Positions 18,029 to 43,303 of a DNA stretch of 64,000 nucleotides are shown piece by piece (the stretch's first letter is position 1; each line of letters opens with the position of its first letter). Made by a program: the position numbers and the translations under genes. The notes under the pieces were generated by a model. The model was not told where the DNA came from. It saw nothing but the letters and a program-made list of their open reading frames with translations, and did not search any database. This stretch comes from Flavobacterium sp. 5. Its GTDB lineage: Bacteria; Bacteroidota; Bacteroidia; Flavobacteriales; Flavobacteriaceae. The DNA lies in contig NZ_PHUE01000001.1 in NCBI RefSeq assembly GCF_002813295.1, positions 2,046,001 through 2,110,000 of the forward strand. The letters run 5' to 3'.

Positions 18029-19000
18029 ATGTCAAAATCTAATAAAAAAGAATCAGAAGAATTGGAAGAAAAACTAATAGATATGAGCACTTTAAGCAGA
18101 AAAGAATTAGTTCAAAGAGCTAAAAAATTTTCTAAGCAATATTGCGTTGGAGATGGAGACGGTTTTAAGCTTAAGGATTATGAAACCAAAGCCGATTTTA
18201 AATTAGGCGATGAAGGAAAGCCATTAGTAAAGCAAACGTTAGAAATAGGTGTTGAAGCTCTGGCAAAACTGCAAGATATATTGTATGCACAAGACAAATG
18301 GTCAGTATTGCTCATTTTTCAAGCAATGGATGCTGCAGGAAAAGACGGAGCCATCAAACACGTTATGTCGGGTATCAATCCACAAGGATGCCAGGTTTTT
18401 TCTTTTAAAGCTCCAAGTTCTGAGGATTTAGATCATGATTTTTTATGGCGTTGCCAAAAGCATCTGCCTGAACGTGGGCGTATTGGTATTTTTAACCGCT
18501 CTTATTATGAAGAACTATTAGTCGTTCGTGTGCATGAACAAATTTTAAAAAGCCAAAAACTCCCGGAAAAATTATTTACCAAAGACATTTGGGAAAATCG
18601 TTTTGAAGACATTCGCAACTTCGAAAAATACCTGAACAGAAATGGAACTATCGTTATCAAATTTTTCCTTAACGTCTCCAAGAAAGAACAGAAAAAACGT
18701 TTTATAGAGCGCGTAGACGACCCAGACAAAAACTGGAAATTCAGCGCTGCAGATGCTAAGGAACGCGGATATTGGGATGACTATATGAATGCTTACGAAG
18801 ATTTAATCAAAGAAACCTCTACCAAAAAATCACCTTGGTATGTTATACCTGCCGATAATAAATCCTATGCCCGTATTGCAGTTGCATCAGCAATCATAAC
18901 AGCGCTGGAAGAACTGGATTTAGAATATCCAAAAGTAAGCGAAGCAAAAATAGCTGAATTACAAGAGGTCAAAAGAGCATTGCTAAACGAAAAAGACTAA
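18029..19000 (+). CDS. PPK2-family polyphosphate kinase / polyphosphate:nucleotide phosphotransferase
   Basis: A 323-residue cytosolic P-loop enzyme that moves phosphate between polyphosphate and nucleotides. Walker A is AMDAAGKDGA (99-108), the lid and Walker B region includes RIGIFNRSYYEELLVVRVH, and RFIERVDDPDKNWKFS and YWDDYMNAYED are typical of PPK2. It is a single-domain form. The N-terminal KYCVGDGDGFKL-like segment resembles the group annotated as polyphosphate:nucleotide phosphotransferase (PPK2_rel_1). NDP versus NMP preference cannot be read from the sequence. It lies 22 bases before the SulP gene and is probably co-transcribed with it. Confidence 0.92.
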   Translation: MSKSNKKESEELEEKLIDMSTLSRKELVQRAKKFSKQYCVGDGDGFKLKDYETKADFKLGDEGKPLVKQTLEIGVEALAKLQDILYAQDKWSVLLIFQAMDAAGKDGAIKHVMSGINPQGCQVFSFKAPSSEDLDHDFLWRCQKHLPERGRIGIFNRSYYEELLVVRVHEQILKSQKLPEKLFTKDIWENRFEDIRNFEKYLNRNGTIVIKFFLNVSKKEQKKRFIERVDDPDKNWKFSAADAKERGYWDDYMNAYEDLIKETSTKKSPWYVIPADNKSYARIAVASAIITALEELDLEYPKVSEAKIAELQEVKRALLNEKD

Positions 19001-19022
19001 ATCCCCTCTAGAATCTTAAATT

Positions 19023-20723
19023 ATGATCTCTAAATTATTTCCAGCCACAGCTTGGATTAAAGATTACAAAACCCCAGACCTAAAAAAAGACTTTACAGCT
19101 GGAATAACACTAGCCGCCTATGGAATTCCAGTATCAATGGCGTATGCTACTCTTGCGGGTCTGCCTCCGCAATATGGAATTTATGGCTATCTCATTGGCG
19201 GATTATTTTATTCTATTTTGGGTACAAGTAAGCAGCTTGCTATTGGTCCAACATCTGCAATTTCATTATTGATAGGCACTACAATTGCTACAATGGCCAA
19301 TGGTGATATACAACGATGGGCAGATATAGCCTCACTCACAGCTCTGGTATTTTCAGTCCTAGCCATACTCGCTTATCTATTGCGATTAAGTGGCATTATC
19401 AATTTTATTAGCGAAACCGTTTTGGTTGGATTCAAAGCGGGCGCTGCCATAACTATTGGATTGACTCAATTACCCAAACTTTTTGGTGTAAAAGGTGGCG
19501 GTGAAAATTTCTTAGATCGTATTTTTACACTTTTTCAACAGCTTCCAGATACCAATCTTTCGGTTTTTATTTTTGGTATTACTGCGATTATCATTCTAAT
19601 TGTTGGCGAAAAAATTCTCCCAGGTAAACCCATCGCGATATTAATTGTAACACTATCGATTATACTCATTTCGACAACATCCTTAGCACATCATGGATTC
19701 TCAACTGTTGGAGTAATTCCAACAGGATTACCCGAATTTCATTTGCCTACTTTACGCATTAAGGATGTCGATGGCGTTCTGCCTTTAGCCTTGGCTTGTT
19801 TTTTATTATCGTATATCGAAAGTGTTTCGGCAGGCAGAACATTAGCCCAAAAAAATGGTTATATCATCGATGCTCGTCAAGAATTATTGGCACTCGGAAT
19901 AGCCAATGCAGCTGTAGCACTTGGACAAGGATATCCCGTTGCTGGAGGATTATCACAATCTGCTGTAAACGACAGCGCAGGAGCAAAAACACCATTATCC
20001 TTAGTATTTGCCTCAGTTGCTATTGCTTTTTGTCTACTGTTTTTAACTGGGTTTCTTCAAAATTTGCCTACTGTGATTTTAGCATCCATTGTTTTGGTTG
20101 CCATCCGAGGATTATTTGACCTCGAAGAAATCAAACATCTCTACAAAATAAACAAACAGGAATTTTATGTTGCTATGATTGCGTTGGTAGGAGTACTCAT
20201 TTGGGGAATCCTGACTGGTGTTTTACTCGCCGCGATCGTAACTTTATTGCTGTTAATAAAAGCAACTTCAAAACCAAATGTTGCCTTTTTGGGCAGAATA
20301 CCAAATACCAAACGCTATACAGATATAGTTCGTCATCCAGACAACGAAAGCATTGCAGGAATATTGATTGTGAGAATAGAATCTTCTATTTTTTATTTCA
20401 ATGTCGAACACATCAAAGAACGAATTTGGGAGAAAATTAATAGCGAATCCGATTCGGTTAAAGCTGTGATACTAGACCTCAATTCCTCTCCACGTATTGA
20501 TATTGCTGGATCTCGGTTTTTAAAACAGCTTTTTATAGATTTAAAATCAAAGAATATTTCTCTCAAAGTTGCCGAAGCCCGTTCCGAAGTTCGCGATTCT
20601 TTACGCTCCGAAAATCTGGAGACACTTTTGGGTCACATCAGCCGAAGTGTTTCTGTCGATGATTTAGTAGTTAGTGCGATTAATTCTAATTTGGAAGTGC
20701 CACCTACTAGAGAAAACGGCTAG
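19023..20723 (+). CDS. SulP-family anion transporter with STAS domain
   Basis: A 566-residue inner-membrane transporter. The SulP signature AYATLAGLPPQYGIYGYLIGG lies near residues 38-60, there are about 12-14 helices with a transport core (SYIESVSAGRTLAQKNGY), and the C-terminal STAS domain spans about 430-555 (IFYFNVEHIKERIW, AVILDLNSSPRIDIAGSRFL). Substrates in the family include sulfate, bicarbonate and dicarboxylates; the substrate here is open. The stop codon lies inside the hairpin 20707-20753, which starts the repeat element described separately. Confidence 0.92.
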   Translation: MISKLFPATAWIKDYKTPDLKKDFTAGITLAAYGIPVSMAYATLAGLPPQYGIYGYLIGGLFYSILGTSKQLAIGPTSAISLLIGTTIATMANGDIQRWADIASLTALVFSVLAILAYLLRLSGIINFISETVLVGFKAGAAITIGLTQLPKLFGVKGGGENFLDRIFTLFQQLPDTNLSVFIFGITAIIILIVGEKILPGKPIAILIVTLSIILISTTSLAHHGFSTVGVIPTGLPEFHLPTLRIKDVDGVLPLALACFLLSYIESVSAGRTLAQKNGYIIDARQELLALGIANAAVALGQGYPVAGGLSQSAVNDSAGAKTPLSLVFASVAIAFCLLFLTGFLQNLPTVILASIVLVAIRGLFDLEEIKHLYKINKQEFYVAMIALVGVLIWGILTGVLLAAIVTLLLLIKATSKPNVAFLGRIPNTKRYTDIVRHPDNESIAGILIVRIESSIFYFNVEHIKERIWEKINSESDSVKAVILDLNSSPRIDIAGSRFLKQLFIDLKSKNISLKVAEARSEVRDSLRSENLETLLGHISRSVSVDDLVVSAINSNLEVPPTRENG

Positions 20724-20808: not shown

Positions 20809-21041
20809 ATTCGCGATTAAATTAAACTTTATCAGTAAAATAATTTCATACAAATTTGCAGATCATTACCAAAAAATCTGCCAAATCTGCGTGAAAAACA
20901 AATCTACATCAACAAGAACAAATCATAATATTCCGCCAAAGACCGTTCAAAAACCGTAAAAGTTCCTTATTTTTGCGCCCGATTTCAAATACATTTTATT
21001 TCAAATCAACTTATATTTCTCAACTTAAATTAGTTTATAGC
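20724..21041. other. Gap between SulP and trhO: repeat tail, degenerate repeats and promoter
   Basis: These 318 bases contain the tail of repeat copy 1, an AT-rich stretch with AATCTGCCAAATCTGCGTG, a motif of the kind often seen between Flavobacterium genes, and a -7 box TATTTTTG at 20968-20975 upstream of trhO. No coding frame is credible. Confidence 0.55.
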
Positions 21042-22409
21042 ATGCAACTGTACAACACTTTAAGCGCAGAAGAAAGAGCCATCATGATTGATGATGCCGG
21101 AAAACAACGATTAACGTTGTCTTTCTATGCTTATGCGCAAATTTCAAATCCAACTCAATTTCGTAACGATTTATTCTTAGCTTGGGATCCACTTGGGGTT
21201 TTAGGCCGAATTTATGTAGCCCACGAAGGAATCAACGCTCAATTGTCTTTACCTGCGGATAATTTCTACGCATTCAAAGATACTGTTGAAGCGTATGATT
21301 TTATGAAAGATATGCGATTGAATATTGCCGTAGAACATGACGACCATTCGTTTTTGAAATTAACTGTAAAAGTCCGCGATAAAATTGTTGCCGACGGTTT
21401 GAACGACGATACTTTTGATGTAACCAATATCGGAATTCATTTAAAAGCAAAGGAATTTAATGAAATTTTAGAAAACCCAAACACAATTGTAGTTGATTTT
21501 AGAAATCATTATGAAAGTGAAATTGGTTATTTTAAAGGTGCCATTACACCTGATGTAGATACATTTCGTGAATCTTTGCCTATCATCAATGAGCAATTAC
21601 AAGATTTTAAAGAAGATAAAAATTTAGTTATGTATTGCACTGGAGGAATCCGTTGCGAGAAAGCCTCTGCTTACTTTAAACATCAAGGTTTTAAAAATGT
21701 ATTTCAACTAGAAGGGGGAATTATTAATTATGCAAAGCAAATTAAGGAAGAAGGATTAGAAAGTAAATTCATTGGTAAAAACTTCGTATTTGATCATCGC
21801 TTAGGCGAGAGAATTACAGACGATATCGTTTCACAATGCCATCAATGTGGCGAACCTTGCGATGTTCATACGAATTGTGTTAATGAAGGCTGTCACTTAC
21901 TTTTCATTCAATGTGATTCCTGTAAAGAAAAAATGCACGGTTGTTGTTCTCCAGAATGTGTAGAAATAATCCATTTGCCAGAAGAAGAACAAAAAGCCAT
22001 TCGAAGAGGAATTAAAAACGGAAATAAAATCTTCAAAAAAGGAAAATCGGATGTATTGACTTTCAAAAACAATCACGACCCTTTGGCTAATGTTCCAAAT
22101 CTTAGCGAATTAATAAAGTCAAAACCTCTCGTAAAAAAAGAGCCTAAAATTAAAAAACAATACATCGGTCAAGGAACTCACTTTTTTCCAAAGCCATCAA
22201 TTGCCCAATTTTTAATTGAAGAAAACGAAATTAATATTGGAGATACTATTTTAATCAAAGGTTCAACAACTGGAGAGCAAAAATTAGTAATCGACAAGAT
22301 GTTTGTTAATGATATTGAATCAGAAAAAGCTGTTTCTGGTGATGTAGTTACTTTCAAAGTTCCTTTTAGAATTAGATTGTCTGATAAAATTTATAAGATT
22401 TTAGAATAA
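21042..22409 (+). CDS. trhO: Oxygen-dependent tRNA uridine-34 hydroxylase TrhO with extra C-terminal domain
   Basis: A 455-residue protein from ATG 21042 (MQLYNTL); an upstream TTG frame start at 20973 is unlikely. TrhO (YceA) makes 5-hydroxyuridine at tRNA position 34 using O2. Order: N-terminal acylphosphatase-like domain (1-120, [12 protein letters not shown]), rhodanese domain (140-230) with catalytic Cys199 in [12 protein letters not shown], and the Cys-rich [15 protein letters not shown]...[12 protein letters not shown] segment (about 267-310). Bacterial TrhO normally ends soon after that. Here residues 371-455 add a domain 60% identical, by hand alignment without gaps, to the end of the neighbouring TrhP. 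It lies 6 bases before trhP. Confidence 0.92.
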
Positions 22410-22415
22410 CTTATC

Positions 22416-23657
22416 ATGACAACGAACAAAAAAATTGAACTTATGGCTCCCGCTGGGAACTTTGAGTCGCTTCAGGCTGGATTAGATAATGGTGCCGATT
22501 CTGTATATTTTGGAGTAGAACAATTGAACATGCGTGCTCGTGCAACAGTCAATTTCACGATGGATGATTTACCAGAAATAGCACGTCGTTGCGAAGCCAA
22601 AAATGTTAGAAGTTATTTGACTTTGAACACGATTATTTACGATCACGATTTATCGGTTGTAAAAACATTATTAAACAAAGCCAAAAAAGCCAATATCACC
22701 GCTGTAATAGCTTCCGACCAGGCCGTTATTGCTATGGCAAGAGGCATCGGGATGGAAGTACATATTTCAACGCAATTGAATATTACCAATATAGAAACCA
22801 TCAAGTTTTACAGTTTGTTTGCTGATACGATGGTTTTGAGTCGTGAATTAAGTTTACGCCAAGTAAAAAAAATCACCGAACAAATCGAGAAAGAACAAAT
22901 CAAAGGACCAAATGGCAAATTGGTAGAAATTGAAATCTTCGGTCACGGAGCTTTATGTATGGCGGTTTCTGGAAAATGTTATTTGAGTTTACACTCTCAT
23001 AATTCTTCTGCAAATCGTGGTGCCTGTAAACAAAACTGTCGCAAGAAATATACCGTTATCGATCAGGAAAGTGGTTTTGAAATCGAATTGGATAACGAAT
23101 ACATGATGTCACCAAAAGATTTATGTACTCTTGATTTTCTAGATCAGGTAATAGATTCGGGCATTCAGGTATTGAAAATCGAAGGCAGAGGTCGCGCTCC
23201 AGAATATGTGGCAACTGTTATTAAAACCTACCGAGAAGCTATCGATAGTTATTATGAAAGAACCTTTACCAAAGAGAAAATCGCGCTTTGGATGGAAGAT
23301 TTAAACACCGTTTACAATCGTGGTTTTTGGTCAGGTTATTATCTTGGACAAGAATTGGGAGAATGGAGCGATGTTTCGGGATCTGTTGCGACTCAAAAGA
23401 AAGTCTATGTTGGAAAAGGAACTCATTTTTTTCCAAAAGCCGAAATTGGTCAATTTAAAATTGAAGCATACGATATAAAAATTGGCGATAAAATATTAGT
23501 TACTGGTCCAAGCACAGGAGCTCAGGAAATGATTATCAACGAAATGTATGTCAATGATGTTGTTTCTGAAAAAGCAACAAAAGGAGACGATTGTACTTTG
23601 AAAATGCCTTTCAGAATCCGAATGTCTGATAAATTATACAAAATAGTCGAAGCCTAA
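22416..23657 (+). CDS. trhP: U32-family tRNA hydroxylation protein TrhP
   Basis: A 413-residue protein of the peptidase-U32 group (YegQ/TrhP), which forms 5-hydroxyuridine at wobble U34 with prephenate as hydroxyl source. The N-terminal TIM-barrel part opens with ELMAPAGNFESLQAGLDNGADSVYFG-type sequence. The cluster-binding signature is intact, with four Cys in HGALCMAVSGKCYLS and RGACKQNCRKKY. Residues 328-413 are the C-terminal U32_C-type beta domain (KKVYVGKGTHFFPK). It starts 6 bases after trhO and overlaps the ferredoxin gene by one base, so the three form a tight operon. Confidence 0.92.
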   Translation: MTTNKKIELMAPAGNFESLQAGLDNGADSVYFGVEQLNMRARATVNFTMDDLPEIARRCEAKNVRSYLTLNTIIYDHDLSVVKTLLNKAKKANITAVIASDQAVIAMARGIGMEVHISTQLNITNIETIKFYSLFADTMVLSRELSLRQVKKITEQIEKEQIKGPNGKLVEIEIFGHGALCMAVSGKCYLSLHSHNSSANRGACKQNCRKKYTVIDQESGFEIELDNEYMMSPKDLCTLDFLDQVIDSGIQVLKIEGRGRAPEYVATVIKTYREAIDSYYERTFTKEKIALWMEDLNTVYNRGFWSGYYLGQELGEWSDVSGSVATQKKVYVGKGTHFFPKAEIGQFKIEAYDIKIGDKILVTGPSTGAQEMIINEMYVNDVVSEKATKGDDCTLKMPFRIRMSDKLYKIVEA

Positions 23658-23887
23658 TGGTTATTGTAACGCTTCAAAGAGACAAATGTATTGGGTGTAA
23701 TTACTGCGTAGAAATGGCGCCGGTGCAATTTCAAATGTCCAAAAAAGACGGAAAATCAGTGTTGATTAAAAGTGTAAATGCCAAAGGTTTTTACACTTTA
23801 AAATCAGCTGACCACGCTATAACCGAAAGTTGTGAACTCGCTGCCAAAGCCTGTCCCGTGAAAATCATTTCTATAAAAGAAACCTAA
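23657..23887 (+). CDS. Small [4Fe-4S] ferredoxin in the trhO-trhP operon
   Basis: A 76-residue ferredoxin with one [4Fe-4S] site: Cys11, Cys14 and Cys17 in KCIGCNYC, and a later Cys in the AKACPVKI motif. The second half lacks another CxxCxxC. It overlaps the trhP stop by one base (TAATG), which makes it a strong candidate electron donor for the TrhP cluster. Single-cluster ferredoxins of this size are common; the pairing with TrhP is inferred from the overlap. Confidence 0.88.
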   Translation: MVIVTLQRDKCIGCNYCVEMAPVQFQMSKKDGKSVLIKSVNAKGFYTLKSADHAITESCELAAKACPVKIISIKET

Positions 23888-24087: not shown

Positions 24088-25482
24088 ATGGCATGTACAA
24101 GTTGTTCAACTTCAGATGGTGGTGCACCAAAGGGTTGTAAAAATAATGGGACTTGCGGCACCGATAGCTGCAATAAATTAACGGTTTTTGACTGGCTTTC
24201 GAACATGAATTTGCCTAATGGAGAAGCTCCTTTTGATTGTGTGGAAGTCCGTTTTAAAAACGGGAGAAAAGAATTTTACCGTAATACCGAGAATTTAACT
24301 TTAAGCATAGGAGATATTGTAGCAACTGTTGCATCCCCTGGGCACGATATAGGAATTGTAACTCTTACAGGAGAATTGGTAAAAATTCAAATGAAGAAAA
24401 AAGGAGTAAATCATACTAGCAATGAGGTTCCTAAAATCTATCGAAAAGCTTCTCAAAAAGACATTGATATCTGGACAACAGCCCGAAACAAAGAAGAGCC
24501 TATGAAAGTACGAGCTCGTGAATTGGCTATTGCCCAAAAGCTGGAAATGAAAATTTCGGATATCGAATTTCAAGGAGACGGATCAAAAGCTACTTTCTAC
24601 TATACTGCCAATGACAGAGTCGATTTTAGACTTTTAATCAAAGACTTTGCTAAGGAATTCAGTACTAGAGTAGAGATGAAACAAGTAGGTTTCCGTCAGG
24701 AAGCTGCTCGTTTAGGCGGAATCGGTTCTTGCGGTAGAGAATTATGTTGTTCGACTTGGTTAACTGATTTCAGAAGCGTAAATACATCTGCTGCACGTTA
24801 CCAGCAATTATCTCTAAACCCACAAAAACTTGCTGGTCAATGTGGAAAATTGAAATGCTGCCTGAATTACGAACTAGATACTTACATGGATGCCTTAAAG
24901 GATTTTCCAGAGTTTGAAACCAAATTAGTTACCGAAAAAGGAGATGCCGTTTGTCAAAAACAAGATATCTTCAAAGGACTTATGTGGTTTGCCTACGTTG
25001 GCAATTATGCTAACTGGCATATCTTGAAAATTGATCAGGTTAAAGAAATTATTGCAGAGAACAAACTCAAAAACAAAGTTTCATCATTAGAGGATTATGC
25101 TATTGAAGTTGTTGTCGAACCAGAACAAAATTTCAATAATGCGATGGGTCAGGAAAGTTTAACGCGTTTTGATCAGCCAAAAAGGAAGAAAAAACCAAAC
25201 AACAAAAAACCGAGACCTGCAGGAGAAAAAGCTATTGTTCCTAACAATGCAAACAAGCAGCCTGCTATACAAAAAAGCGCAGCGCCAAATGCCCCGAATG
25301 CAAATACTGCCGACAAAGAAGTTCCGGTTAAAGAAAACCCGAATCCAAACAGCGCTAACAAGAATCGCAATAAAAACAAGAATCGCAATAAAAATAATAA
25401 CAATCGCCCTCCTTCCGCAGAGAATAAAACAGAAGAGCCTAGAAAACCAATAATTATTAAAAAAAATGAGAATAAAGAATAG
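24088..25482 (+). CDS. PSP1/RicT-like protein
   Basis: A 464-residue protein with a Cys-rich N-terminus (ACTSCST, then three more Cys by residue 28), a PSP1 C-terminal-type core (about 110-290), and a Lys/Asn/Pro-rich disordered tail (about 360-464) that repeats NRNKNKN. The core keeps GSCGRELCCSTW and QCGKLKCCLNYE, the Cys clusters that bind [4Fe-4S] in Bacillus RicT (YaaT). In Bacillus, RicT works with RicA and RicF in RNA maturation. Its job in Bacteroidota is not established. The last 17 bases overlap the start of gldH, so the two are co-expressed; this pairing matches what I know of gldH loci. Confidence 0.85.
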   Translation: MACTSCSTSDGGAPKGCKNNGTCGTDSCNKLTVFDWLSNMNLPNGEAPFDCVEVRFKNGRKEFYRNTENLTLSIGDIVATVASPGHDIGIVTLTGELVKIQMKKKGVNHTSNEVPKIYRKASQKDIDIWTTARNKEEPMKVRARELAIAQKLEMKISDIEFQGDGSKATFYYTANDRVDFRLLIKDFAKEFSTRVEMKQVGFRQEAARLGGIGSCGRELCCSTWLTDFRSVNTSAARYQQLSLNPQKLAGQCGKLKCCLNYELDTYMDALKDFPEFETKLVTEKGDAVCQKQDIFKGLMWFAYVGNYANWHILKIDQVKEIIAENKLKNKVSSLEDYAIEVVVEPEQNFNNAMGQESLTRFDQPKRKKKPNNKKPRPAGEKAIVPNNANKQPAIQKSAAPNAPNANTADKEVPVKENPNPNSANKNRNKNKNRNKNNNNRPPSAENKTEEPRKPIIIKKNENKE

Positions 25483-25945
25483 TCTTTTACTGTTTTTTGT
25501 AGCAGTACTCCTTTTTTCGTGTGATAAAAAAAGAGTTTTTGATGAGTATAAATCTGTAGGAAGCGCCTGGAACAAAGATAGTATTGTTACTTTTGACTTA
25601 CCTGTTTTAGATTCAACAAAGAGATATGATTTGTATGTGAATTTAAGAGATAACAACAATTACAAATACAGCAATCTCTTTCTGATTGTGTCTTTAGAAA
25701 GTCCAAATGGTTATACCAAAGTAGACACCTTAGAATACCAAATGGCTGAACCTGACGGAACATTATTAGGTGATGGTTTTACAGATATCAAAGAGAGTAA
25801 ACTCTACTATAAAGAGAATGTTCGCTTTAGAGGAAATTACAAAGTACATATTAAACAAGCGGTGAGAGAAAATGGAAAAGTACCTGGTGTAGCTTTTTTA
25901 GACGGAATTACCGAAGTAGGTTTTAGAATAGAAAAAAAAGATTAG
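25466..25945 (+). CDS. gldH: Gliding motility lipoprotein GldH
   Basis: A 159-residue lipoprotein: signal peptide with lipid-modified Cys19 (LLFSCDKKRVFDEYKS), then a beta-rich domain with YDLYVNLRDNNNYKYSNLF and EVGFRIEKKD, the recognisable GldH pattern. GldH is one of the lipoproteins needed for gliding and the type IX secretion system in Flavobacterium johnsoniae. The start overlaps the upstream PSP1-like gene by 17 bases, and a penicillin-binding protein gene follows 9 bases later. This is good evidence that the organism belongs to the gliding/T9SS Bacteroidota. Confidence 0.92.
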   Translation: MRIKNSLLLFFVAVLLFSCDKKRVFDEYKSVGSAWNKDSIVTFDLPVLDSTKRYDLYVNLRDNNNYKYSNLFLIVSLESPNGYTKVDTLEYQMAEPDGTLLGDGFTDIKESKLYYKENVRFRGNYKVHIKQAVRENGKVPGVAFLDGITEVGFRIEKKD

Positions 25946-25954
25946 AACGCGATT

Positions 25955-28273
25955 ATGGCTATCAAAAAAAATAACCCTCAGACAAAAAGCATCAATAAAG
26001 ATGTGAAATATTATTCCAGAAAATTTTGGAAAATTTACTTCTCCGGACTGGGAATTATTGCTTTATTCTTCCTGCTTGCCTCATGGGGTATCTTTGGATC
26101 TATGCCTTCATTTGAAGATTTAGAAAATCCAGATTCTAATTTAGCTACTGAAATCATCTCTTCAGACGGAGTTGTTTTAGGTAAATATTTCAAACAAAAC
26201 CGTTCTCAATTAAAATATTCTGATCTACCAAAAAACCTTGTACAAGCCTTAGTTGCTACCGAAGATGCCCGTTTTTATGAGCATTCTGGTATTGACGGAA
26301 GAGGAACACTAAGAGCAATCGCAAGTTTAGGAAGAAGCGGTGGAGCGAGTACCTTGACCCAACAATTGGCTAAACAATTATTTCACGGTGAAGGTTCAAA
26401 ATTTTTACCTTTCCGTATTGTTCAAAAAATGAAAGAATGGATTATTGCCATTCGATTGGAAAGACAATATACCAAAAACGAAATCATTGCGATGTATTGC
26501 AATGTGTATGACTTTGGTAATTATTCAGTAGGAGTTAGTTCTGCAGCGCAAACTTATTTTTCTAAAGCTCCAAAAGATCTGACCATAGATGAATCAGCTA
26601 TTTTAGTAGGGATGTTCAAAAACTCTGGACTATACAATCCTGTTAAAAATCCTGTTGGTGTAAAAAACAGAAGAAATGTAGTGCTTCATCAAATGGAAAA
26701 AGCACACATCATTTCTGAAGATCAAAAAATCCAATTACAGAGCTTGCCTATCACTTTACATTTCAAATTAGAAAGTCACAGAGAAGGGACTGCTACTTAC
26801 TTTAGAGAATACCTTCGTGAGTATATGAAAAAATGGGTAGAAGAAAATAAAAAGCCCGATGGATCTGACTACGATATTTACAAAGACGGTTTAAAAATCT
26901 ACACTACAATTGATTCAAGAATGCAGGCTTACGCTGAAGAAGCTGTTTCTGCACACATGGCCAATATGCAGGAAGAATTTTTCATACAATCCAAAGGCAA
27001 TAAAAATGCTCCTTTTGTAAACATTTCTGAAGCAGAGACCGAACGCATTATTAATCAGGCGATGAAATCATCTCACAGATGGGATGTTTTGAAAGAGCAA
27101 GACAAAAGCGATGATGAGATTATCAAAACCTTTAGTGAGAAAACAAAAATGACTGTTTTCACTTGGAAAGGTGAAAGAGATACTATTATGACTCCGTTGG
27201 ATTCCATCCGTTATTACAAACACTTTTTACAAGCTGGTGTAATGTCAATGGAACCACAAACGGGTAATATCAAAGTTTGGGTTGGAGGTATCAACTACAA
27301 ATATTTCCAATATGATCACGTAGGTCAAGGAGCCAGACAAGTAGGTTCAACATTCAAACCATTTGTGTATGCAACTGCTATAGAACAATTAAACATGTCT
27401 CCTTGCGATTCGATTCTTGATGGACCATTTATTATTCGTAAAGGACGTCATCACGTAACCGAAGATTGGGAACCAAGAAACTCCGATAATAACTACCGCG
27501 GAATGGTAACCCTAAAACAAGCATTGGCATACTCTATAAATACCGTTTCAGCGAAATTAATTGACAAAGTTAGCCCAGAGGCCGTAATAGAACTGACTCA
27601 TAAATTAGGAGTGAAATCCGAAATTGTAACCCAACCTTCGATCGCTTTAGGAGCTGTAGAAATAACTGTTGAAGATATGGTTGCGGCATTCAGCACATTT
27701 GCTAATCAAGGTGTTTATACTAAACCACAGTTCTTATCCAAAATTGAGAATAAAAGTGGCGAAGTAATCTATGAACCAATTCCTGAATCTCATGATGTTT
27801 TAAATAAAGACATTGCTTTTGCCATCATTAAATTGCTGGAAGGTGTAACCGAAAGTGGTTCTGGAGCTAGATTGAGAACACAAGGCGGAGGAAATGGAGA
27901 CAAACGCTGGACAGGTTACCCGTATATGTTTAAAAACCCAATTGCAGGTAAAACAGGAACTTCACAAAACCAATCCGATGGTTGGTTTATGGGAATAGTA
28001 CCTAACCTTGTAACAGGTGTTTGGGTAGGTTGCGAAGACCGTTCGGCACATTTCAAAAGTCTTACTTATGGACAGGGAGCAGCAATGGCCTTACCAATTT
28101 GGGGATATTTTATGGACAAATGCTATAAAGACGAAAACTTAAAAATATCCAAAGAATCTTTTGAAAGACCTGCCAATCTTTCTATCAAAGTAGATTGTTA
28201 CACCCCGAGACCTGCAGTAGTTAAAGATTCAACTGCAACTCCAGAACAAGACACCGAAGAATTCTCTTTGTAA
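25955..28273 (+). CDS. Class A penicillin-binding protein (PBP1A-type glycosyltransferase/transpeptidase)
   Basis: A 772-residue bifunctional murein synthase. One N-terminal transmembrane helix (about 30-50) is followed by a GT51 domain (75-250) with catalytic EDARFYEHSGID and GASTLTQQLAKQLF. The transpeptidase domain (about 430-740) has serine motif GSTFKPF, SINTVSA, and KTGTSQNQSDGW. All catalytic motifs are intact. The last gene of the ricT-gldH operon, it is followed by hairpin repeat copy 2. Confidence 0.95.
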   Translation: MAIKKNNPQTKSINKDVKYYSRKFWKIYFSGLGIIALFFLLASWGIFGSMPSFEDLENPDSNLATEIISSDGVVLGKYFKQNRSQLKYSDLPKNLVQALVATEDARFYEHSGIDGRGTLRAIASLGRSGGASTLTQQLAKQLFHGEGSKFLPFRIVQKMKEWIIAIRLERQYTKNEIIAMYCNVYDFGNYSVGVSSAAQTYFSKAPKDLTIDESAILVGMFKNSGLYNPVKNPVGVKNRRNVVLHQMEKAHIISEDQKIQLQSLPITLHFKLESHREGTATYFREYLREYMKKWVEENKKPDGSDYDIYKDGLKIYTTIDSRMQAYAEEAVSAHMANMQEEFFIQSKGNKNAPFVNISEAETERIINQAMKSSHRWDVLKEQDKSDDEIIKTFSEKTKMTVFTWKGERDTIMTPLDSIRYYKHFLQAGVMSMEPQTGNIKVWVGGINYKYFQYDHVGQGARQVGSTFKPFVYATAIEQLNMSPCDSILDGPFIIRKGRHHVTEDWEPRNSDNNYRGMVTLKQALAYSINTVSAKLIDKVSPEAVIELTHKLGVKSEIVTQPSIALGAVEITVEDMVAAFSTFANQGVYTKPQFLSKIENKSGEVIYEPIPESHDVLNKDIAFAIIKLLEGVTESGSGARLRTQGGGNGDKRWTGYPYMFKNPIAGKTGTSQNQSDGWFMGIVPNLVTGVWVGCEDRSAHFKSLTYGQGAAMALPIWGYFMDKCYKDENLKISKESFERPANLSIKVDCYTPRPAVVKDSTATPEQDTEEFSL

Positions 28274-43159: not shown

Positions 43160-43238
43160 GGTTGGATGTGTCCTGCTCTCCGCTTTATCTTTATAGTTTT
43201 AAATAAAAACCACAAAGGATATCACTTCGATCAGGGCT
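43160..43238. repeat. Extragenic repeat element, diverged copy 3
   Basis: GGGTTGG, CCTGCTCTCCGC, an A/T-rich hairpin (ATCTTT...GTTTT / AAAAC...AAAGGAT, 43188-43220) and CACTTCGATCAGGGCT. The layout CTmTCCGC-hairpin-CTTCgATC-GGG resembles copies 1 and 2, but the hairpin differs and the ends differ in detail, so membership is likely but not certain. Confidence 0.45.
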
Positions 43239-43303
43239 AAGAGGAAAGATTTTACTTCTTTGCTATGATTTACAATTACCATCAAATCGGCTTTATAAAA
43301 AAG

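Follow-up and report, generated by a model that had tools for sequence, protein, structure and literature searches.

Two hydroxylases that act on U34 of tRNA are the closest described relatives of the proteins treated here: TrhO (YceA, UPF0176), which is O2-dependent, and TrhP (YegQ), which is prephenate-dependent and belongs to the U32 family. Sakai et al. (PMC6599085) describe the C, T, second G and R of the rhodanese loop motif as essential in E. coli TrhO. This protein ends at 350 amino acids (aa) without a U32_C-type domain, and according to the same study it hydroxylates tRNA in vitro and binds tRNA(Ala1) but not tRNA(Leu3). A structure of B. subtilis TrhO with tRNA(Ala) has also been determined (9j5o). 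Sakai et al. place orthologues of trhP mainly in gamma- and beta-proteobacteria and trhP1/trhP2 in Firmicutes and some further groups, and they suggest that this task may also be performed by other U32 groups (PMC6599085). Here we analyzed a stretch of 64,000 nucleotides from Flavobacterium sp. 5 (the window), in which trhO, a trhP-like U32 gene and a ferredoxin gene follow each other head to tail, all on the + strand, and in which TrhO and the U32 protein end in the same domain. The features of the locus are as follows.

21042..22409, + strand: trhO, 455 aa, with a UPF0176_N, rhodanese and rhodanese_C core, a linker and a C-terminal U32_C-type domain (Pfam, NCBIfam)
21636..21653, + strand: rhodanese active-site loop CTGGIR of TrhO, residues 199-204 (aligned to E. 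coli TrhO)
22065..22151, + strand: lysine-rich linker of TrhO, about residues 342-370 (predicted model, alignment)
22152..22406, + strand: C-terminal domain of TrhO, residues 371-455, predicted U32_C fold
22416..23657, + strand: trhP-like U32 gene, 413 aa (Pfam, NCBIfam, profile match to E. coli TrhP)
22956..23039, + strand: four-cysteine motif CX6CX15CX3C of the U32 protein (C181, C188, C204, C208), the expected [4Fe-4S] site
23397..23651, + strand: C-terminal domain of the U32 protein, residues 328-412, predicted U32_C fold
23657..23887, + strand: ferredoxin, 76 aa, CxxCxxC ... CP, single-cluster type (Pfam Fer4_13, Fer4_15; co-occurrence)

The TrhO of the window passes the NCBIfam equivalog NF001133 (261 bits, cut-off 170) and keeps the CXGGXR loop with the essential cysteine. 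Compared with E. coli TrhO, a linker and an 85-residue domain are added after the core. Residues 371-455 of TrhO align gap-free with residues 328-412 of the U32 protein at 51 of 85 identical positions (BLASTP, E 3e-32), and the maximum reached in 20,000 shuffles was 15 identities. This confirms the original prediction that both proteins carry one and the same C-terminal domain. At E <= 1 Pfam recognizes UPF0176_N, rhodanese and rhodanese_C in TrhO and the U32 domain alone in its neighbor; the tails match nothing. When the profile Peptidase_U32_C (PF16325), the named family for domains like those of Geobacillus 4he5/4he6, was run against the own genome with E up to 10, neither tail was matched and two weak matches lay elsewhere. 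A U32_C label drawn from the Pfam sequence profile was therefore dropped in favor of fold evidence. The tail is easily overlooked because this profile misses it.

Comparison of predicted models gave both tails the fold of the solved C-terminal domain of a Geobacillus U32 peptidase (4he5, 4he6), at a sequence identity of 14-21%. The predicted local distance difference test score (pLDDT) of the tails ranged between 71 and 92 per block; the final block of the U32 tail alone was lower, at 56. The two C-termini are thus predicted to share one U32_C-type fold, as had been proposed, and unlike in the Geobacillus peptidase the domain here is also found on a rhodanese-type enzyme. The motifs GKxxH, GDxxL, GxxTG and RxSDKxYK are kept in both tail sets, which comprise 72 tailed TrhO rows (some genomes contribute two) and the 53 U32 tails left after exclusion of two divergent sequences. 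The linker of the 72 TrhO rows measures 26-41 aa with a net charge of +1 to +8, and its model falls below pLDDT 50 at residues 357-368.

We determined the distribution of the tailed TrhO in a phylum scan of 198 Bacteroidota genomes, an order scan of 246 Flavobacteriales genomes (some smaller than 1 Mb; TrhO called at E <= 1e-30) and a family scan of 249 Flavobacteriaceae genomes, about one per genus; all counts refer to the matches listed. The phylum scan found the tail in 12 of 198 genomes, namely in all 10 Flavobacterium and in two Weeksellaceae. TrhO was found in 176 of 246 genomes of the order scan and carried the tail in 56: 23/23 Flavobacterium, 32/32 TrhO-bearing Weeksellaceae, a group to which Chryseobacterium belongs, and G237 from another genus of Flavobacteriaceae. 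In the family scan TrhO was present in 215 of 249 genomes, and among the matches listed only G000, G021 and G237 showed the tail; matches beyond those listed have E values of at least 8.2e-163, those of every tailed protein seen being 1.1e-210 or lower. A tailed TrhO was also found in Myroides pelagicus (L157). The best 120 of 402 protein matches to the tail were all rhodanese-type, and the organism names given were Flavobacterium. Beyond these few groups TrhO lacks the domain among the matches listed, as predicted. Within these scans of Bacteroidota the domain is not carried by most TrhO (12/198 Bacteroidota, 56/176 TrhO-bearing Flavobacteriales).

In a tree of 78 TrhO cores the 46 tailed proteins formed one clade (support 99/88). 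The tree took 22 of the 32 tailed Weeksellaceae proteins. They were sister to a group of 16 proteins from Flavobacterium, with 7 others of this genus, that of the window included, outside. Forcing Flavobacterium and G237 together without Weeksellaceae, a grouping named after the tree had been seen, was rejected in the approximately unbiased (AU) test (p-AU 0.0019). Mean TrhO core identity was 83% between Flavobacterium and Weeksellaceae and 66% between Flavobacterium and untailed proteins. The corresponding means for the U32 core were 79.5% (Flavobacterium to Weeksellaceae) and 78.4% (Flavobacterium to others), and Weeksellaceae U32 proteins did not fall inside Flavobacterium in the U32 tree, in which many forks are weak. 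Judged from these sequence comparisons, the tailed trhO therefore seems to have moved between Flavobacterium and Weeksellaceae without trhP, the direction being a matter of inference. Between the genome of the window (G000) and G558 (L045), the U32 proteins are 96% identical with a core nonsynonymous distance (dN) of 0.020 and the TrhO cores have a dN of 0.133; trhO may therefore have been exchanged within Flavobacterium too.

The neighboring gene could have supplied the tail. In several untailed relatives trhO adjoins trhP: it lies directly before trhP with a gap of 3-11 bases in G107, G118, G408, G233, G213, G363 and G344, and the order is trhP-ferredoxin-trhO in four others (G134, G295, G312, G333). 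The tight operon noted originally holds for the window; elsewhere, in 8 of 14 Flavobacterium loci with both genes, trhO and trhP are 142-1682 bases apart. In a reduced tail tree of 77 rows, from which eight long-branch U32 rows were excluded, the TrhO tails formed one clade (99/91). The larger tail tree described below had first suggested that the TrhO tail is nested within the Flavobacterium U32 tails, which AU tests did not bear out. There was no sign of ongoing gene conversion between the tails, with identities within versus between genomes of 54.2% vs 53.4% in 14 Flavobacterium and 50.5% vs 50.4% in 7 Weeksellaceae.

Presence of the U32 protein was called at E <= 1e-70. It is missing in 35 of the 56 genomes with a tailed TrhO (9/23 Flavobacterium, 25/32 Weeksellaceae and G237), and none of the 27 of these searched for the ferredoxin had a match. 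The tail is nevertheless under purifying selection, with a median omega of 0.081 (16 usable values from 18 genome pairs), compared with 0.031 for the TrhO core (18 values) and 0.051 for the U32 tail (7 values); two pairs in which both genomes lack the U32 protein gave 0.091 and 0.110. Since the tail is kept where the U32 enzyme is missing, it is not expected to depend on this enzyme or on the ferredoxin. The original prediction had the shared domain dock a common partner, allowing the cell to alternate between the O2-dependent route and the O2-independent one. The three genes lie side by side in the window as in many relatives, and both enzymes bear the tail. Nevertheless, docking of a common protein, be it the ferredoxin or the other hydroxylase, is not supported by this pattern of absence and we regard it as quite unlikely. 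A common tRNA as the target is possible and is the reading we prefer. The faster evolution of the tail relative to the core and the tail-less TrhO of many relatives could also indicate a functionless relic of a fusion. Its presence in all scanned Flavobacterium and TrhO-bearing Weeksellaceae, the selection on it and the retained motifs in common with the U32 tail make this very improbable.

We next consider whether the U32 protein is TrhP, as originally stated. It contains the U32 domain PF01136 (233.7 bits) and, like TrhP, a U32_C-type tail and the four-cysteine motif, which is invariant in 15 proteins and agrees with the family motif CX6CX15CX3/4C described in PMC6747719. A profile match to E. 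coli TrhP extends over 366 columns (E 1.1e-37). On the other hand it scores 191 bits against the TrhP equivalog NF011996 with its cut-off of 534, shares 26% identity with E. coli TrhP in BLAST (115 bits), falls into a Bacteroidota clade of its own and has a constant ferredoxin neighbor, whereas no ferredoxin is found among the genes beside E. coli trhP. The name TrhP and prephenate dependence are assumptions; profile, motif, tail and the complementarity with TrhO described below favor a TrhP-like enzyme. E. coli RlhA is slightly closer in BLAST (28%, 142 bits). Together with the separate clade and the score below the TrhP cut-off, this would suit a protein that acts on another RNA or molecule than U34 tRNA, the domain being a general RNA- or ribosome-binding piece. 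The genome however encodes a separate U32 protein with 42% identity to E. coli RlhA, and complementarity with TrhO, adjacency to trhO and the common tail all speak against such a role, which we consider unlikely.

In the family scan both proteins occurred in 52 genomes, TrhO only in 163, the U32 protein only in 31 and neither in 3 (Fisher 4.9e-14, a test that like the following one ignores shared ancestry), so that the U32 protein was present in 31/34 TrhO-less but 52/215 TrhO-bearing genomes. Complementarity was weaker in the order scan (both 26, TrhO only 150, U32 only 20, neither 50; p 0.018), with 20/70 TrhO-less versus 26/176 TrhO-bearing genomes. This pattern supports the suggestion that other U32 groups do the job of TrhP. 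In three Capnocytophaga loci (L159, L160, L162) the U32 gene was observed and no trhO in the sequence stretch examined. UbiU-UbiV offer a parallel: these ubiquinone hydroxylases also belong to the U32 family, carry [4Fe-4S] clusters and work without O2 as counterparts of O2-dependent hydroxylases (PMC6747719), as proposed here for the U32 enzyme. They differ in their substrate, and no ferredoxin gene lies beside ubiU-ubiV in E. coli.

The ferredoxin was present in 55/55 U32 loci of a first set (1-base overlap in 37, within 210 bases in 54) and in 78 of 80 named U32 loci, the best 80 of 589 (1-base overlap in 51, within 210 bases in 75); the two sets overlap. Exceptions among the named loci are L160 and L194 without a ferredoxin and L159, L167, L197 and L082, where it is 0.9-3.3 kb away. 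It was absent from every fetched trhO locus that lacks trhP. Genome-wide (E <= 1e-5) it was found in 9/9 genomes with the U32 protein and in 0/40 without, 27 of these 40 having a tailed TrhO. We also examined 20 further loci across the phylum, taken from the tail matches of the phylum scan: all encode U32 proteins, none fused to TrhO, and 7 have a ferredoxin beside them. In a further U32 tree these 7 grouped with 14 proteins from the first set in one clade (99/99) that had a single ferredoxin-less member, G160, and 12 other ferredoxin-less proteins stood apart; the ferredoxin partner therefore marks one U32 subclade. Its proposed role as electron source of TrhP holds as far as the tie to the U32 enzyme goes, and most simply the ferredoxin is the redox partner of the U32 cluster, electron transfer itself being inferred.

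We propose the following explanation. TrhO and the ferredoxin-linked U32 enzyme would be alternative makers of 5-hydroxyuridine at tRNA position 34 (ho5U34). U32_C, a small barrel that resembles domain 2 of EF-Tu, would grip the body of the tRNA during the action of the catalytic domain on U34. A single copying event in a Flavobacterium-like ancestor may have attached the C-terminal part of the neighboring trhP-like gene to the end of trhO, so that TrhO obtained an additional, tethered module for holding tRNA. Horizontal transfer would then have carried the tailed trhO between Flavobacterium and Weeksellaceae. The ferredoxin would pass electrons to or from the [4Fe-4S] cluster of the U32 enzyme. 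Since E. coli TrhO discriminates between tRNAs, a borrowed grip could widen the substrate set of TrhO. We give this explanation as a whole an even chance. The original interpretation is partly supported.

Several points weigh against it. Resemblance in fold is no proof of function, and an incomplete literature search found no RNA-binding test of a U32_C domain. The tail is close to neutral, with a median net charge of +1 and a value of 0 in the window TrhO. Together with conserved residues that are partly structural (G, D, F), this could mean that the tail keeps both enzymes in oligomers or steadies their folding with no contact to RNA; since tail-less E. coli TrhO hydroxylates tRNA in vitro and the basic RxSDKxYK end is retained in both enzymes, we hold such a role to be improbable. 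To return to the tRNA-holding explanation, the U32 protein misses the TrhP cut-off and its cysteine region (residues 178-236) is modeled with pLDDT under 50. A larger tail tree of 101 rows placed the long-branch U32 tail G150 among the TrhO tails, which are then not strictly one clade, although their unity was not rejected (p-AU 0.40), and donor tests singled out no donor (a Weeksellaceae origin had p-AU 0.30, and the Flavobacterium U32 tails as one clade 0.35). The complementarity tests take no account of phylogeny, and 50/246 genomes of the order scan have neither gene. Nor do the counts support the view that genomes with the tail can do without the U32 enzyme: the U32 protein was present in 21/56 tailed (order scan) versus 51/212 untailed genomes (family scan), a difference (Fisher 0.06) opposite in direction to the one expected.

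A broader and more tentative claim, which we think somewhat unlikely to hold in full, is that U32_C can be transplanted as a module for tRNA recognition, that it passed a single time from an iron-sulfur U32 hydroxylase to the chemically unrelated, rhodanese-type TrhO and there provides tRNA contacts which TrhO would otherwise lack, and that the ferredoxin-linked Bacteroidota U32 clade is a distinct ferredoxin-fed, O2-independent ho5U34 synthase. One small domain on two enzymes that apparently share a target base, but neither chemistry nor fold, offers a clean handle on the role of U32_C. With the constant ferredoxin, an O2-independent RNA hydroxylase gains a candidate redox partner. The pattern of U32 or TrhO predicts which Flavobacteriaceae can make ho5U34 without oxygen. 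Our incomplete literature search found no paper on a TrhO-U32_C fusion or a ferredoxin link.

The tRNA set shows why U34 is of importance in this genome. It contains 55 tRNA genes (Rfam), and ARAGORN gave an anticodon for 54 in the stretches read. Val and Pro are served by UAC and UGG anticodons only, and for Ala, Thr, Ser and Leu the stretches read showed no CGC, CGU, CGA or CAG anticodon. A route to uridine 5-oxyacetic acid (cmo5U) was rejected, as a search of the genome found no CmoB homologue (best E 0.06). The one PF01596 O-methyltransferase of the genome (G000:C1:1353997-1354590, L221) resembles many O-methyltransferases, with TrmR/YrrM structures lower-ranked; it is a possible TrmR-like ho5U methyltransferase and candidate for a 5-methoxyuridine (mo5U) route, and we do not assign it.

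The octamer TATTTTTG at 20968-20975 (+), about 66 bases upstream of trhO, resembles TAnnTTTG, which we take to be the Bacteroidota -7 box. Scans near genes found sigma-70-type promoters at chance level (12 vs 13.6 in shuffles) and 4 terminators vs 2.5 in shuffles. Just upstream of trhO, at 18029-20723 (+), lie a polyphosphate kinase 2 gene and, after a 22-base gap, a gene for a SulP-type sulfate permease with a STAS domain. Downstream of the trio, at 24088-28273 (+), genes for a PSP1-domain protein, a GldH lipoprotein and a transglycosylase/transpeptidase penicillin-binding protein follow consecutively. The sole Rfam match in the window at the gathering threshold is a Flavo-1 RNA (RF01705), a small RNA family, at 43165-43242 (-) with 67.9 bits.
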